Shown: in pieces, positions 3,830-35,546 of the stretch
Position numbering within the stretch: position 1 is the first letter of the stretch
Layout: each line of letters opens with the position of its first letter
Source: Cellulomonas sp. KRMCY2
Lineage (GTDB): Bacteria; Actinomycetota; Actinomycetes; Actinomycetales; Cellulomonadaceae
Direction: 5' to 3'
Length of the DNA: 64,000 nt
Assembly (NCBI RefSeq): GCF_000526515.1
Contig: NZ_JAGF01000001.1
Location: 3,348,001-3,412,000, forward strand
Notes under the pieces: model-generated
What the model was told of the DNA's origin: nothing
Databases searched by the model: none
What the model saw: only the letters and a program-made list of their open reading frames with translations
Made by a program: the position numbers and the translations under genes

Positions 3830-4975
3830 ATGGCCAGCATCAAGAAGCGCCCTGACGGGGTGTGGCGAGCCCGATACCGCGACGGGGCGGGCCACGAGCA
3901 CGCCAAGCACTTCCCGCGCAAAGCCGACGCGCAGCGGTGGCTGGACGAGGTGACGACGGCGGTGGTGACGGGTACCTACGTGGACCCGAAGACGGCACGC
4001 ACGACGGTGGAGGACTGGTGCATCTCGTGGCTCGCCGGCTACGGCACTCGGCGCGCCTCGACGGTCCGTCAGGGACGCGTGCACGTGGCGAGGATCGTCG
4101 CGGAGTTCGGACCCATGCGACTCGGGGACGTGCGCCCCTCCCACGTGAAGGCGTGGACGGCCAAGCTCAAGGCCGAGGGCGCGGCCGACTCCTACGTCTA
4201 CGCCCTGCCCGCCCGCCTCGCGCAGATCATGGCCGACGCGGTTCACGACGGCGTGATCCCGCGCTCGCCCTGCTCGCGGCGTACGTCGCCGGGTGCCGGC
4301 CAGCAACGGCCTTACGTCGCGACGGAGACCCAGCTGTGGGCGCTCGTCGACACCGTTCCGGAGAACCTCCGGCCGGCGGTCTTGCTTGCCGCGTTCGCCG
4401 GCCTGCGTGTCGCTGAGGTCTGTGGGCTCCGGGTCACGGACGTCGACTTCATGCGAGGCGTGATCAGCCCGGCAGTGCAGTACCCGGAGGAGCCGCTCAA
4501 GACGGCGATCAGCCGGACCTCGGTGCCGATCCCGCAGTCGCTGGCGCTGGCGCTCGCGGACGGCGCTGGCGGGCGCAGGTGGATCGTCGAGACGAGCGTG
4601 GGGGAGCAGGTCGGCCCGTGGCAGCTCGATCGGGCGGTCCGCGCGGCACGAGCCTCCCTCAAGGCGAGGGCAGAGGAAGCGGAGCAGCAGCCGAAGGCGA
4701 AGCCCGCAGACATCGAGGCGGCACGGGCTCGGGCACTGCCTGAGGGCTTCCGGTTCCATGACCTCAGGCACTTCTACGCCTCATTGCTGATCGCCTCCGG
4801 CGCGGACGTGAAGGTCGTCCAGGCGCGGCTTCGGCACGCGTCCGCGAAGACGACCCTCGACACCAACGCCCACCTGTGGCCGGACACAGAAGAGTCCACA
4901 CGCGCCGCCGTCGGAGCAGCAATGGCGGCGCGTGCGGACTCTCTGCGGACTAGCGTCCGGGAAGTCGAGCGTTAG
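3830..4975 (+). CDS. Tyrosine recombinase (integrase), catalytic Tyr replaced by Asn
   Basis: A 381-residue phage/ICE-type integrase; start set at the ATG giving MASIKKRPDGVW, the usual Arm-binding domain opening. Arm-type domain at about 1-55, SAM-like core-binding domain at about 65-150, catalytic domain at about 165-370. Arg193 (GLRVAE), the Lys near PLKTAISR, His310 and Arg313 (HDLRH) and His336 (LRHAS) are present. The tyrosine nucleophile, expected ten residues after His336, is Asn346 (codon AAC, 4865-4867) in the context TLDTNAHLWP, where relatives read TLDTYGHLWP. Full length is otherwise kept. Without Tyr the strand-cleavage step cannot occur, so the enzyme should be dead. It converges on glnA with a 23-bp gap. 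Confidence 0.85.
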   Translation: MASIKKRPDGVWRARYRDGAGHEHAKHFPRKADAQRWLDEVTTAVVTGTYVDPKTARTTVEDWCISWLAGYGTRRASTVRQGRVHVARIVAEFGPMRLGDVRPSHVKAWTAKLKAEGAADSYVYALPARLAQIMADAVHDGVIPRSPCSRRTSPGAGQQRPYVATETQLWALVDTVPENLRPAVLLAAFAGLRVAEVCGLRVTDVDFMRGVISPAVQYPEEPLKTAISRTSVPIPQSLALALADGAGGRRWIVETSVGEQVGPWQLDRAVRAARASLKARAEEAEQQPKAKPADIEAARARALPEGFRFHDLRHFYASLLIASGADVKVVQARLRHASAKTTLDTNAHLWPDTEESTRAAVGAAMAARADSLRTSVREVER

Positions 4976-30510: not shown

Positions 30511-30861
30511 ATGAGCGAGACCACCGAGACCGCTACCCACGGCGTCGAGCTGAGCGACGTCGCCGCAGGCAAGGTGCGCGCCCTGCTGGAGCAGGAGGGC
30601 CGTGACGACCTGCGACTGCGGGTCGCCGTGCAGCCTGGCGGCTGCTCGGGCCTGATCTACCAGCTGTACTTCGACGAGCGTGTGCTCGACGGCGACGCGA
30701 TCCGCAGCTACGACGGCGTCGAGGTGGTCGTCGACCGGATGAGCGTCCCGTACCTCGACGGCGCCACGATCGACTTCGCGGACACGATCGAGAAGCAGGG
30801 CTTCACGATCGACAACCCGAACGCCGGCAGCTCGTGCGCGTGCGGCGGGTCGTTCGCCTGA
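30511..30861 (+). CDS. erpA: ErpA/HesB-type iron-sulfur insertion protein
   Basis: A 116-residue A-type carrier that hands Fe-S clusters to apo-proteins. The three conserved cysteines are visible: GGCSGLIY (about 47-54) and the C-terminal SSCACGGSF pair. The start is ATG at 30511 with GGAGAG upstream. A possible -10 box TACCCT (30418-30423) would give a leader of about 80 nt. Targets in this window could include LipA, NadA and the Rieske protein. A bidirectional hairpin follows at 30880. Confidence 0.93.
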   Translation: MSETTETATHGVELSDVAAGKVRALLEQEGRDDLRLRVAVQPGGCSGLIYQLYFDERVLDGDAIRSYDGVEVVVDRMSVPYLDGATIDFADTIEKQGFTIDNPNAGSSCACGGSFA

Positions 30862-30934: not shown

Positions 30935-31246
30935 TCAGCCTGCGGGCGAGGCGATGCGGATCGTCGTGGCGAACGCCTCGACGGGGGCCGGCGGCGTGCC
31001 CGGTGCGCGATCGGCCGATCCACCGTCGGGCTGCAGGTCGGCCGGCTCGGTGTCGACCGCGACCGTGCCGATCAGTGCGTGCCCACGCATGCGGGCCCAC
31101 GCCGGCAGGTCGTGACGGGCCGCCGGATCCGTCCACAGGATCGTGACGAGCGAGCCGGGGGGCGCGCCACGGGCCGCCGCAGCGGCCCGGATCACCGGCA
31201 GCGGGCAGCGCAGGCCACGAGCGTCGACGACGGTCTCCGCGGTCAC
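30935..31246 (-). CDS. TusA/SirA-type sulfur carrier protein
   Basis: GTG at 31246 gives 103 residues. The CPxP motif with the sulfur-accepting Cys (DARGLRCPLPVIRAA) sits in the usual place near the N-terminus, followed by the beta-alpha core (GSLVTILWTDPAARHDLPAWAR). About 40 extra residues after the core are Pro/Asp-rich. It overlaps the preceding gene by 4 bp (GTGA), a cysteine-desulfurase homologue lacking the PLP lysine. TusA normally takes persulfide sulfur from such an enzyme; here the true donor is unclear. Function: probable sulfur relay. Confidence 0.85.
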   Translation of the reverse strand: MTAETVVDARGLRCPLPVIRAAAAARGAPPGSLVTILWTDPAARHDLPAWARMRGHALIGTVAVDTEPADLQPDGGSADRAPGTPPAPVEAFATTIRIASPAG

Positions 31247-32385
31247 AGGCCCACCGCACCGATCATCCGCCGGACGTGCGCGACGGCGTCGGGCAGGGCT
31301 GCGCAGAAGCGGTCCACGTCGTCCTGGGTGGTCTCGCGGGGCAGTGCCAGCCGGACGTTGCCGTGGGTCAGCACGCCCATGGCGGCAAGCACGTGGCTCG
31401 GTTCGAGGGTGCTCGACGTGCAGGCGGACCCCGAGCCCACGGCGAACCCGCGGCGGTCGAGCTCGGTGACGAGCGCCTCCCCGTCGACGTACAGGCAGGA
31501 GAAGGTCACGACGTGCGGCAGCCGTGCGTCCGGGTCGCCGACGACCTCGACGTCGGGGACCTCGGCGGCAACCCGCGCACGCACCTGGGCCACCATGGCC
31601 CGGCGCCGGGTGTCGGCCGCCTGGCGGTCGGCCAGCACCGCCTGCAGTGCGGCGGCCGCGCCGAACGCGGCCGGGACGCTCACCCCGCCCGGGAACCACG
31701 CGTCGTCGTCCGGCGGGCCCACCGGGGCGGTCCGCACGCGCGAGCGGACGGCGAGCACCGCGACGCCTGCCGGTCCGCCCCAGTCGCCCGGGTCCGCCGC
31801 GAGCAGGTCCCAGGCCTGACCGACCTCGACGTGGCCGACCCCGGCGCCGGCGTCGACCAGGAGCGGGACGCCGGCGGCCAGGGCCGCCTCGTGGGCACTC
31901 TCGAGCGGCTGGAGCGTGCCCACCTCAGGGTTGGCGTGCTGCAGGGCCGCGATCGCGACGCCGGGTTCTGCCACGGCACGCGTCCATCCCGTCAGGTCGA
32001 CCCGGCCGGTGCGGTCGACCGGGACCACCTCGGTGCCGTCCGGGGCGACGAACCGGGCGGCGGACAGCACGGCGGCGCGTTCGACCGCCGACACGACGGC
32101 TCGCGAGCCGACGCGCCGACGGCCACGGGCGACGCCCTGCACTGCCGCGTGCAGGCTCGCGGTGTGACTCGGGGCCAGGTGCACCTCTTCGGTGCGGCAC
32201 CCGAGCGCGTCGGCGAAGACCTGGCGGGCGTTGTCGAGGAGCAGCTGCGCCCGGCGGCCCTCGGCGTGCAGCCGGCGCGGATCCGCCCAGCCCTCGGCCA
32301 GAGCGGCGTCGTAGGCCGTGCGACCGGCCGGGTGCACGGGAGCGCGGCCACCTGCGTCGAGGAAGGTGCGGTGCGGTGCGTCCAC
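31243..32385 (-). CDS. Cysteine-desulfurase-fold protein with no lysine
   Basis: GTG at 32385 gives 380 residues that align along their length with class V aminotransferase cysteine desulfurases: QHANPEVGTLQPL (about 149-161), cofactor Asp178 in LLVDAGAGVGHVEV, and GSGSACTSSTLEPSHVLAAM with the persulfide Cys322. At the place of the PLP-binding Lys (relatives read SAHKFGGPKG) it has DPGDWGGPAG with Asp201, and the PLP-stacking His near residue 102 is replaced (AVERAAV). There is no Lys anywhere in the protein, so a Schiff base with PLP is impossible. It is coupled by a 4-bp overlap to the TusA-like gene, so it may bind or relay sulfur without doing desulfurase chemistry. Confidence 0.85.
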   Translation of the reverse strand: MDAPHRTFLDAGGRAPVHPAGRTAYDAALAEGWADPRRLHAEGRRAQLLLDNARQVFADALGCRTEEVHLAPSHTASLHAAVQGVARGRRRVGSRAVVSAVERAAVLSAARFVAPDGTEVVPVDRTGRVDLTGWTRAVAEPGVAIAALQHANPEVGTLQPLESAHEAALAAGVPLLVDAGAGVGHVEVGQAWDLLAADPGDWGGPAGVAVLAVRSRVRTAPVGPPDDDAWFPGGVSVPAAFGAAAALQAVLADRQAADTRRRAMVAQVRARVAAEVPDVEVVGDPDARLPHVVTFSCLYVDGEALVTELDRRGFAVGSGSACTSSTLEPSHVLAAMGVLTHGNVRLALPRETTQDDVDRFCAALPDAVAHVRRMIGAVGL

Positions 32386-32483
32386 GTCGCCACGGTAGCG
32401 GCCACGACGGAACGAGCACGCATGACGTCGAGCGCGCGCTACGCTGGTGCCCACCAGAGGACCAAAGTCCCAGGTGGGCGCAC

Positions 32484-32501
32484 CGCCGCACCGGTGCGGC
32501 G
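32484..32501. promoter_or_regulatory. Perfect 18-bp palindrome in the ctaC leader
   Basis: CGCCGCACCGGTGCGGCG lies 30 bp before the ctaC start and about 40 bp after a -10-like TACGCT (32440-32445). It could be an operator or form a hairpin in the leader RNA. Confidence 0.45.
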
Positions 32502-32530
32502 AACCGGGCGCGTGACATGAGAGGGCACTC

Positions 32531-33409
32531 TTGGACGTGCAGAACCCCCGTCGACGCCGAACAGGCGTCGTCAGGCTCTCGGCTCTTGCCGTGCTGGTCA
32601 CCCTCGCCATGAGCGGCTGCTCCGCGCAGGTCCAGCGTGGCTTCCTCCCGGGATACGACGACGGACAGGTCACCAACCAGACCGAGCGGATCACCAGCCT
32701 GTGGACCGGTTCGTGGATCGCCGCGCTGATCATCGGCGCGCTCACCTGGGGCCTGATCATCTGGTGCGTCGCGGTCTACCGGAAGCGCAAGGACGACGAC
32801 ACGCTGCCGGTGCAGCTGCGGTACCACGTGCCGCTCGAGGTCATGTACGTGATCCTGCCGATCCTGATGATCGGTGTCCTGTACTTCTTCACCGAGCGTG
32901 ACATGTCGGCGATCGAGGACGTCAGCGCCGAGCCGGACCTGACGGTCCAGGTGATCGGCAAGCAGTGGAGCTGGGACTTCAACTACCTCGACGACGACGT
33001 CTGGTCCAGCGGGGTGCACGTGGACGACGTCGCCACCGTGGACTCCACGACGCTGCCGACGCTCTACCTGCCGGTCGACGAGCGGGTCGAGATCGTCCTG
33101 GACTCGCGTGACGTCATCCACTCGTTCTGGGTGCCGGCCTTCCTGTACAAGAAGGACATCATCCCGGGGCGCACCAACGTCTTCCAGATCGTCCCCACCC
33201 GCGAGGGCGTGTACGCCGGCAAGTGCGCCGAGCTCTGCGGTGAGCACCACTCCGGGATGCTCTTCAACGTGGCAGTCGTCTCCCGGGAGGAGTACGACGC
33301 CCAGATGCAGGAGCTGCGCGACGCCGGTCAGACCGGCGAGCTGGGCAGCGACCTCGACCGCGGGCTGTACCGCGGCGACGACACCGCGAACCCGGCAGGG
33401 GAGGGCTGA
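32531..33409 (+). CDS. ctaC: Cytochrome c oxidase subunit II
   Basis: About 292 residues; start TTG at 32531 or GTG at 32537. The signal peptide ends in a lipobox (LAMSGC), so the mature protein is probably a lipoprotein. Two membrane helices (about 60-85 and 100-122) are followed by the cupredoxin domain with the CuA site [12 protein letters not shown] and upstream conserved His ([11 protein letters not shown]). It passes electrons from cytochrome c domains of QcrC to subunit I. The stop overlaps the ctaD start by one base. The C-terminus is acidic and short. Confidence 0.96.
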
Positions 33410-35151
33410 TGGCCACGCACGCCGATCTGGTGCCGGGTCTTGCCCCGCAGCGGCAGACCCACGGTGCCACGGTGATCAAGTGGATCACCTCCACCGACCA
33501 CAAGACGATCGGGTACATGTACCTGATCACGTCGTTCATCTTCTTCTGCATCGCAGGGGTCATGGCGCTGGTCATCCGCGCCGAGCTGTTCGAGCCCGGC
33601 ATCCAGATCGTGCAGAGCAAGGAGCAGTACAACCAGCTCTTCACGATGCACGGCACGATCATGCTGCTGCTCTTCGCGACGCCGCTGTTCGCCGGGTTCG
33701 CCAACGTCATCATGCCGCTGCAGATCGGCGCGCCGGACGTCGCCTTCCCGCGGCTGAACATGTTCGCCTACTGGCTCTACCTGTTCGGCGGCCTGATCGC
33801 CGTCGCGGGCTTCTTCACGCCGCAGGGCGCAGCGTCGTTCGGCTGGTTCGGCTATGCGCCGTTGTCGAGCACCACCTACTCGCCGGGGCTCGGTGGGGAC
33901 CTGTGGGTGTTCGGGCTGGCCCTCGGTGGGTTCGGCACGATCCTCGGCGCGGTCAACTTCATCACCACGATCATCACGATGCGCGCGCCCGGCATGACGA
34001 TGTTCCGGATGCCGATCTTCACCTGGAACACGCTCGTCACGAGCATGCTCATCCTCATGGCGTTCCCGCCGCTCGCCGCCGCGCTGCTGGCGCTGGGGGC
34101 GGACCGACGGCTCGGTGCCCAGGTCTTCAACCCGGAGAACGGCGGCGCCATCCTGTGGCAGCACCTCTTCTGGTTCTTCGGGCACCCCGAGGTCTACATC
34201 ATCGCGTTGCCGTTCTTCGGCATCGTCAGTGAGATCCTGCCGGTCTTCAGCCGCAAGCCGATCTTCGGCTACAAGGGTCTGATCTACGCGACGATCGCGA
34301 TCGCGGCGCTCTCGGTGACCGTCTGGGCGCACCACATGTACGCGACCGGCGCCGTGCTGCTGCCGTTCTTCGCCCTGATGACGATGCTCATCGCGGTGCC
34401 GACAGGTGTGAAGTTCTTCAACTGGATCGCCACGATGTGGCGCGGCAAGCTCACCTTCGAGACGCCGATGCTGTGGACCATCGGCTTCCTGGTGACCTTT
34501 CTGTTCGGTGGTCTGACCGGGGTCATCCTGGCGTCGCCGCCGCTGGACTTCCACGTGACCGACACCTACTTCGTCGTGGCGCACTTCCACTACGTGGTGT
34601 TCGGCACCGTGGTGTTCGCGATGTTCGCCGGGTTCTACTTCTGGTGGCCGAAGTTCACCGGCAAGATGCTCGACGAGCGGCTCGGCAAGGTGCACTTCTG
34701 GATGCTGTTCTTCGGGTTCCACACGACGTTCCTCATCCAGCACTGGCTCGGTGTGATCGGCATGCCCCGGCGGTACCCGGACTACATGCCGGAGGACGGC
34801 TTCACCTGGATGAACCAGGTCTCGACAGTGGGTTCGGTCCTGCTCGCGGCATCGACCCTGCCGTTCCTGTGGAACGTCTACACGACCTCGCGCAACGCGC
34901 CCAAGGTGGCCGTCGACGACCCGTGGGGCTACGGCAACTCCCTCGAGTGGGCCACCAGCTGCCCGCCACCGCGGCACAACTTCACGTCGCTGCCGCGGAT
35001 CCGCTCCGAGCGGCCCGCCTTCGACCTGCACCACCCTGAGGTCGCCGCGATGGACCACGTGGAGCCGGACGCCGGGGTCCTCATCTCGCACGGCGGTCAC
35101 CCGCCGGACGGTCACGTCGTCGACGGCGACCCGCAGGAGGGTCAACGATGA
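33409..35151 (+). CDS. ctaD: Cytochrome c oxidase subunit I
   Basis: A 580-residue membrane protein with 12 expected helices that reduces oxygen to water and pumps protons. Haem a ligand in [11 protein letters not shown], the CuB His with its cross-linked Tyr in [10 protein letters not shown], the CuB His pair in WAHHMYATG, and the haem ligand pair in [10 protein letters not shown]. The C-terminal 60 residues form a hydrophilic tail (ending [12 protein letters not shown]) common in actinobacterial forms. Overlaps ctaC (1 bp) and ctaF (4 bp), so the three subunits are translated together. It works in the bcc-aa3 supercomplex with the qcr products. Confidence 0.97.
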
Positions 35152-35546
35152 AGATCGAGTCCAGGCTGTTCCTCTTCCTCGCGCCCTTCTTCCTCGTGAT
35201 CGGCATCGTCTACGCCCTGTGGAGCGGTGGCGAGGCGGTCGGCACCGGCGCCCTGCTCCTGACGGCGGGGCTCGTCGGCATGATCGGCTTCTACCTCAGC
35301 ATGGTCGCCCGGCGGATCGACGCCCGCCCCGAGGACGATCAGCTCGGCGAGATCGAGCACGGCGCCGGCGAGCAGGGCGTGTACAGCCCGTGGAGCTGGT
35401 GGCCGTTGATCCTGGCTGCCGGCGCGGCGATCTCCTTCGCCTCGCTGGCGATCGGCTGGTGGCTCCTGGCGATCGGTGCGGTCGTCGGCGTCATCGGCCT
35501 GATCGGCTGGGCCTTCGAGTTCTCCCGCGGGCAGCACGCGCACTGA
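35148..35546 (+). CDS. ctaF: Cytochrome c oxidase subunit IV (actinobacterial type)
   Basis: A 132-residue protein with four membrane helices (about 5-25, 34-55, 82-100 and 103-123) and a short loop rich in Asp/Glu ([20 protein letters not shown]) between pairs, the pattern of actinobacterial CtaF. It starts inside the end of ctaD (ATGA overlap). Small stabilising subunit of the aa3 oxidase. A weak hairpin lies after the stop. Confidence 0.93.

Follow-up and report, generated by a model that had tools for sequence, protein, structure and literature searches.

Introduction

Desulfurase-like proteins without a catalytic lysine are already known in kind. In the IscS of A. fulgidus the lysine is replaced by an aspartate, and the protein is devoid of desulfurase activity and provides a Cys ligand to a [2Fe-2S] cluster on IscU, according to an excerpt of PMC7585200, which also names M. 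acetivorans IscS1 as lacking the catalytic Lys. Similarly, an excerpt of PMC12910592 lists the desulfurase-related M. tuberculosis Rv3778c, from which the PLP Lys is absent, as expressed and noncatalytic. For E. coli IscS, the available part of PMC9978102 lists Lys206, His104 and Gln183 as indispensable and speculates that the reaction of a K206A variant may continue at a very low rate.

Here we describe P0002, a desulfurase-like gene in the genome of Cellulomonas sp. KRMCY2, which is a single contig of 4.5 Mb. The gene lies in a window of 64,000 nucleotides (positions 3,348,001 to 3,412,000 of NZ_JAGF01000001.1), the whole stretch of DNA that was analysed, and it had been singled out by an original prediction made from the letters of the window.

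Organization of the locus

The P0002 frame starts with GTG at 32385 and terminates with TGA at 31245..31243, and no Lys occurs among the encoded residues, which confirms on the minus strand the Lys-free desulfurase-like frame of the original prediction. The end of P0002 overlaps by 4 nucleotides (GTGA, 31243-31246) with P0003, which starts with GTG at 31246 and encodes a TusA-family protein that scores well above the PF01206 cut-off and, as predicted, retains the Cys of the CPxP motif (Table 1). P0003 misses the cut-off of the NCBIfam TusA equivalog (37.6 bits vs 78). The two genes are flanked by a convergent gene for an ErpA-like protein and by a divergent ctaC, which is followed by genes for further oxidase components.

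Table 1. Features of the P0002 locus and codons of the key residues, in window coordinates
Feature	Position	Strand	Length or basis
ErpA-like Fe-S protein, convergent neighbour	30511..30861	+	NCBIfam ErpA 117.1 bits, cut-off 117
TusA-family gene P0003	30935..31246	-	103 aa; PF01206 58.6 bits, cut-off 28.6
Codon of TusA Cys14 (CPxP motif)	31205..31207	-	sequence GLRCPLP
Lys-less cysteine-desulfurase-like gene P0002	31243..32385	-	380 aa; Aminotran_5 Pfam 4.2e-29
Codon of Arg345 (IscS Arg354, substrate carboxylate), kept	31351..31353	-	118/118 Lys-less rows
Codon of Cys322 (IscS Cys328, persulfide Cys), kept	31420..31422	-	118/118 Lys-less, 116/116 Lys-bearing rows
Codon of Asp201 (place of PLP lysine, IscS Lys206)	31783..31785	-	alignments
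Codon of Asp178 (IscS Asp180, N1 of PLP), kept	31852..31854	-	117/118 Lys-less rows
Codon of Arg103 (place of PLP-stacking His, IscS His104)	32077..32079	-	alignment
Intergenic region P0002/ctaC	32386-32530		145 bp
CtaC, cytochrome aa3 oxidase subunit II, divergent neighbour	32531..33409	+	NF050117 332.3 bits, cut-off 250
COX1 gene, after ctaC	33409-35151		
Cyt_c_ox_IV gene, after COX1	35148-35546		

Predicted fold and desulfurase genes of the host genome

The AlphaFold2 model of P0002 (pLDDT 91.8) is a complete IscS fold. It displays the fold type I, class V aminotransferase architecture, with NFS1/IscS the nearest among the chains compared, and residues 321-327 fall below pLDDT 50, as expected for a mobile Cys loop. 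In NCBIfam the best NifS model gives 200.3 bits, short of the equivalog cut-off of 530.75. Elsewhere in the host genome, at 4.07 Mb, a SufS gene (552 bits, cut-off 475) adjoins one for a NifU_N protein, and two further desulfurase-like paralogues of P0002 keep the Lys. Since SufS and the two Lys-bearing paralogues are encoded in the same genome, an active desulfurase is likely available in the cell, to judge from these genes. An IscU-type scaffold gene was not found beside P0002, and the only NifU_N match of the genome is the one in the SUF locus (4.07 Mb), away from P0002 (3.38 Mb).

Active-site residues lost and retained

The residues of P0002 were placed by alignment with paralogues retaining the His-Lys pair, and the IscS numbering was taken from the accessible part of PMC9978102. 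In P0002 the PLP-binding Lys206 is replaced by Asp201, the canonical VEH motif reads VER, with Arg103 at the place of the PLP-stacking His104, and Gln183 is replaced by Ala181. In contrast, Asp178, the persulfide residue Cys322 on the mobile loop and the pocket residue Arg345 are retained. The paralogue alignment thus upholds the predicted substitution of the Lys, loss of the stacking His and retention of Asp178 and Cys322. The accompanying statement that PLP chemistry is impossible is maybe slightly too strong, given the residual rate envisaged for K206A, although P0002 has lost several of the indispensable residues together and is very unlikely to carry out ordinary IscS/SufS chemistry.

In the 118 Lys-less orthologues position 201 holds D (in 69 of them), S, A, G, T, M or E. 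Because the replacing residue varies, a special role for Asp201 was ruled out, and the aspartate, to which the original prediction had drawn attention, is not in itself noteworthy. Asp201 pairs with Arg103 in 65 of the 69 rows and with His103 in none, a pattern nested in the tree, and an Arg103-Asp201 salt bridge that would fill the PLP site is a lead suggested by this pairing.

The surroundings of the Lys differ markedly between the two sets of orthologues. Ser203 occurs in 115/116 Lys-bearing rows vs 7/118 Lys-less rows and His104 in 114/114 readable Lys-bearing rows vs 27/118 Lys-less rows, while His205, present in 105/116 Lys-bearing rows, is replaced mainly by A, G or R where the Lys is absent. 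Position 153 is His in 109/116 Lys-bearing rows and Gly in 64/118 Lys-less rows. The fully invariant residues of the 118 Lys-less rows (columns 8-375) are W33, N152, E154, G313, G319, C322, L333 and R345. Equating N152 with IscS Asn155, as a kept PLP ligand, was considered and dropped, as by spacing Asn155 corresponds to position 153.

The complete absence of Lys from 380 residues is less surprising given the GC content of the window (72%) and the small number of Lys in Lys-bearing orthologues (only 1-5 in total, 113 of 116 counted); 77 of the 118 Lys-less orthologues contain no Lys anywhere. What stands out instead is that the one catalytic Lys has disappeared along with further PLP ligands.

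An orthologous group divergent from ctaC

In the same-genus sample 16 of 18 genomes carry an orthologue at E below 1e-100, and in the two others the orthologue is cut by a contig end (G014) or only a paralogue is found (G009). Matches at E 1e-60 or better were obtained for 74 of 297 sampled genomes of the window's order and at 1e-45 for 212 of 394 genomes of the class; plasmid copies were not found at 1e-40. Rows were picked by similarity to P0002, with all 74 matches of the order and, beyond the order, only about 74 of roughly 206 class matches being read. The resulting 244 locus rows were reduced to 237 distinct ones by dropping 7 that were near-identical, and to 234 by dropping 3 that were not readable at both key sites. 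Fourteen loci (L001-L003 and L022-L032) representing the window itself again, paralogues or fragments (L023 and L030) were excluded, as was L058 from the counts since it ends before the Cys. The Lys is present in 116 and absent in 118 of the 234 distinct readable orthologues, a proportion that does not represent a natural frequency because rows were chosen by similarity and read only in part outside the order.

P0002 and its orthologues form a group that is spread over the Actinomycetes and oriented divergently to ctaC: in the subset of loci tested for this, 79/82 Lys-less and 104/106 Lys-bearing genes with room lie divergent to ctaC within 700 bp. The Lys is missing from every one of the 74 matching genomes of the order, its place being taken by D in 47, S in 16, T in 5, A in 4, E in 1 and G in 1, and Cys322 is retained in the 73 of 73 that are readable at this site. 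Lys-less rows were found also in other families of the class, and Lys-bearing orthologues only in other orders, at about 40-58% identity. The loss, whose conservation the original prediction proposed to check by homologue alignment, is thus conserved among relatives, and no close homologue keeps the Lys, so that the single decayed copy contemplated in the original prediction is ruled out.

Two unusual cases were observed. A Lys-bearing gene accompanied by TusA and ctaC occurs in a metagenome bin labelled Acidobacteria (L104) and clusters with an actinobacterial row in a preliminary tree; it is probably mis-binned or transferred. Another genome (G177) holds two diverged Lys-less copies (L174 and L175), and no ctaC match adjoins either of them in the sequence that was read; the Cys loop of L174 reads CGCTCG and its TusA has Asn for Cys.

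Repeated loss of the lysine and selection on the Lys-less genes

In trees rooted on the paralogues Lys is the ancestral state, and the Lys-bearing orthologues of other orders point the same way. The 60-row tree displays 3 Lys changes, 2 of which are forced by starred branches, and groups the window's clade (27 rows) with support 100/94. The 70-row tree, which includes more divergent rows, displays 7 Lys changes (bootstrap 6-7), with starred branches forcing at least 3, and the window's clade (26 rows) has support 95/87. Some long, short or similar rows were omitted from the trees, for example L188 and L174, and L244 and L249 from the 70-row tree. Rows of families f15 and f5 and part of f17 have the His and lack the Lys; the Lys can therefore vanish ahead of the His. 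An orthologue of family f51 (L225) carries Met for Lys within otherwise intact SAHMWGGP and VEHS motifs and, to judge from these motifs, is likely a recent first step of PLP-site loss.

The closest Lys-less pairs show purifying selection, with dN/dS of 0.09-0.24 in six pairs (dN up to 0.105; L018 and L090 are identical, so that two pairs count as one), and values of 0.14-0.30 were obtained for the 14 closest Lys-bearing pairs. At larger distance (dN 0.16-0.19) dN/dS rises to 0.30-0.37, and the medians, which are saturated, are 0.46 for Lys-less vs 0.38 for Lys-bearing genes. These higher values suggest that constraint may be somewhat weaker in Lys-less orthologues, subject to saturation of the large-distance values. 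The gene appears dispensable in many lineages, as 223 of 297 genomes of the order are without a match at the threshold used.

The TusA partner and a TusA-like family

Where a locus offers room of at least 600 bp, a TusA gene lies downstream of 113/115 Lys-bearing and 86/116 Lys-less genes. The predicted coupling to TusA is thus common, but it is not obligatory, since TusA is absent, within the sequence read, downstream of 30 of the 116 Lys-less genes. In a first set, the TusA Cys was present in 107/107 Lys-bearing rows, five of them assigned by eye (PCPMP or PCPRP), and by script in 63/65 Lys-less rows, the others being L060, which the script could not read, and L174. TusA is fused to the C-terminus of the desulfurase-like protein in most Streptomyces relatives read, as tails of 82-115 aa. 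In the 60-row tree all 9 TusA-lacking rows (8 changes) are Lys-less, with a probability of 0.019 by branch length, which is suggestive of a tie between the two losses; the tie is not claimed, as the Lys-bearing rows L224 and L226 also lack TusA and the independent-pairs test on the 70-row tree offers only a few pairs. Lys-less rows with and without TusA differ at seven columns (278, 295, 296, 300, 341, 368 and 376).

A PF01206 search of 29 genomes revealed that in several partner-less ones the domain is either absent or confined to a long frame resembling a reductase or to a divergent TusA-like protein. In the host genome the second TusA domain (L215, G000:C1:3674653-3674856) lies inside an 839-aa frame and not in a stand-alone TusA, and the start of this frame resembles, by eye, a FAD-dependent CoA-disulfide reductase. 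A TusA-like family termed A3 (L209:1421-1684, minus strand; L208 and L210-L214) comprises proteins about 88 aa long in which the Cys is invariant and the CPxP prolines are absent (GGDLGCARLL...TTDPVAPIDLPAWC). When A3 was searched for in 80 genomes, it turned up with an E value of 1e-25 or better in 8/9 partner-less vs 1/43 partner-keeping genomes of families f1 and f17, a grouping chosen after the data were seen. The contrast shrinks when weaker hits away from the partner are admitted (4/43 at 1e-13 and 7/43 at 1e-5). Both A3 and the partner TusA are held by 5/5 genomes searched of g50 (f15), and A3 was not found in the 7 TusA-lacking f9 genomes searched; these two observations disfavour A3 as a simple TusA replacement. 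In another genome (G003) an A3-type gene (L307:3848-4180, minus strand) overlaps by 4 nucleotides a 203-aa desulfurase-like frame (4177-4788, minus strand; MAVNHRDVIYLDHNATTP...), which is perhaps truncated.

Proposed function and alternative explanations

P0002 is probably a pseudo-desulfurase without PLP that descends from a ctaC-linked enzyme of the IscS/NifS type and uses Cys322 either to relay persulfide or as an Fe-S ligand. The ancestor, presumably like the Lys-bearing orthologues of Streptomyces, Micromonospora and Nocardioides, would have obtained sulfur from cysteine through PLP and worked with TusA. The PLP Lys and further PLP ligands would have been lost in the window's lineage and on several other occasions within the class, and with them presumably PLP itself, while selection would have continued to maintain the fold, the mobile loop with its Cys and the Arg of the pocket. 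As the Lys was lost in several lineages and the Cys was kept in all relatives read, the P0002 group probably handles sulfur or metal clusters without the usual chemistry. Cys322 would accept a persulfide from SufS or a Lys-bearing paralogue and donate it to TusA or another acceptor; alternatively, it would serve as a ligand in the assembly of an Fe-S cluster on a partner protein, the role put forward for A. fulgidus IscS. In either case a contribution to oxidase or Fe-S maturation may be envisaged. The TusA overlap and fusion favour the relay, while the A. fulgidus precedent and the TusA-less lineages favour the ligand role. A Cys-based scaffold or relay, as first suggested for P0002, thus stands as the best reading, although the idea was already known in kind from the Lys-to-Asp change of A. 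fulgidus IscS.

Each of the two roles might also be the only one. An exclusive relay, in which Cys322 would receive sulfur from SufS, a Lys-bearing paralogue or a small persulfide and hand it on to TusA, draws on the 4-nucleotide overlap, the natural fusions, the 86 adjoining TusA genes and the A3 proteins encoded elsewhere in partner-less f1 and f17 genomes, as well as on the E. coli complex, where, in the accessible part of PMC2854127, the IscS loop Cys comes within about 4 Å of the TusA Cys. It is nevertheless somewhat unlikely: family f9 has mostly lost TusA and shows no A3, yet keeps Cys322, and the A3 association is weakened by the lower-scoring hits, by the f15 genomes with both proteins and by its post hoc recognition. 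Because TusA is missing by the 30 Lys-less genes, a TusA relay would not be the whole role everywhere. An exclusive Fe-S ligand, by which Cys322 would be lent to a nascent cluster on a scaffold such as ErpA or SufU with no sulfur transfer at all, is tenable to about the same doubtful degree. It is in line with the published model for A. fulgidus IscS, which has the same Lys-to-Asp change and the same fold, with the invariance of Cys322 even in the 30 TusA-less rows and with the presence of ErpA near P0002 and in most far-enough loci of the window's family and f9. However, most Lys-less genes adjoin a TusA that has its Cys, in many other lineages ErpA is about 1-4.4 kb off or beyond the sequence read, and an IscU gene was not found nearby.

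To judge from the retained Arg345, a carboxylate may still be bound in the pocket, which forms the basis for a more specific proposal. P0002 would be a PLP-independent sulfur transferase of a kind that arose several times from cysteine desulfurases when the PLP site was lost; its Arg345/Cys322 pocket would accept sulfane sulfur directly from cysteine persulfide in free form, or from a different persulfide with a carboxylate, for transfer to TusA or the adjacent respiratory or Fe-S machinery. We regard this as speculative and distinctly unlikely. A structural scaffold or heterodimer partner that stabilises or regulates an active desulfurase subunit, with no chemistry at Cys322, would suit a genome encoding Lys-bearing desulfurases and the dimeric IscS, whose Cys loop acts across subunits in the part of PMC2854127 available, but it is improbable in that the invariance of Cys322 and Arg345 would be left unexplained while other pocket residues drift. 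Decay of a functionless gene en route to loss might account for the many genomes of the order without a match and for the loss of PLP residues and sometimes of TusA. Against it, the listed matches of the order contain no internal stops, dN/dS is low in the closest pairs and the Cys and Arg are fully conserved over long branches, which renders this explanation very improbable, a slow decay towards loss staying conceivable for single lineages. Finally, a sequencing or annotation error hiding the Lys, the other doubt raised in the original prediction, has a negligible probability, as the same loss recurs in 74/74 matching genomes of the order and in independent Actinotalea, Cellulomonas and Promicromonospora records.

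Comparison with known systems

The pseudo-desulfurase proposed here recalls A. fulgidus IscS, an archaeal protein solved with IscU (PDB 4eb5, 4eb7, 4hvk and 4r5f, the last titled as its D199K mutant). By alignment, both proteins have Asp at the Lys place and keep the Cys. In contrast, A. fulgidus IscS retains the His of VEH, which P0002 has lost, and a paired IscU scaffold gene of the A. fulgidus type was not found beside P0002. Since Lys-bearing orthologues (about 40-58% identity) surround the clade of P0002, the actinobacterial losses are very likely independent of A. fulgidus IscS, the trees comprising the ctaC-linked group and its paralogues, without A. fulgidus IscS. M. acetivorans IscS1, compared by description only, is likewise archaeal and is encoded with IscU1. 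M. tuberculosis Rv3778c, also compared by description only, is characterized in the excerpt as only distantly related to desulfurases. The position of P0002 also differs from that of Rv3778c, which we take not to adjoin ctaC (Rv2200c). E. coli IscS in complex with TusA (PDB 3lvj) shares 26% identity with P0002 in a structural alignment, and its catalytic residues are missing in P0002.

The Lys-bearing ctaC-linked desulfurases of Streptomyces, Micromonospora, Nocardioides and Kribbella are orthologues of P0002 by synteny and tree, with 50-58% identity. They share with P0002 the Cys loop and the TusA partner, which is often fused, and, unlike P0002, they keep SA[HR]KWGGP, VEHS and often Q183, and thus have the look of a working desulfurase site. 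The label cysteine desulfurase, suggested by the best family hits, is probably wrong for the Lys-less group, which bears on the reconstruction of Fe-S and tRNA-thiolation pathways. The ctaC-linked group was not recognised as described in the literature searched, which covered titles, the starts of abstracts and few subscription papers; to that extent the group is new, as are the repeated disappearance of its Lys, the erasure of its PLP site and the strictness with which it keeps the Cys. The earlier reports, as far as the literature was examined, concern single Lys-less cases, whereas here a large orthologous group lies by the aa3 oxidase genes, and its Lys-bearing and Lys-less members, found in the same genetic place, make non-persulfide roles of desulfurases directly testable.
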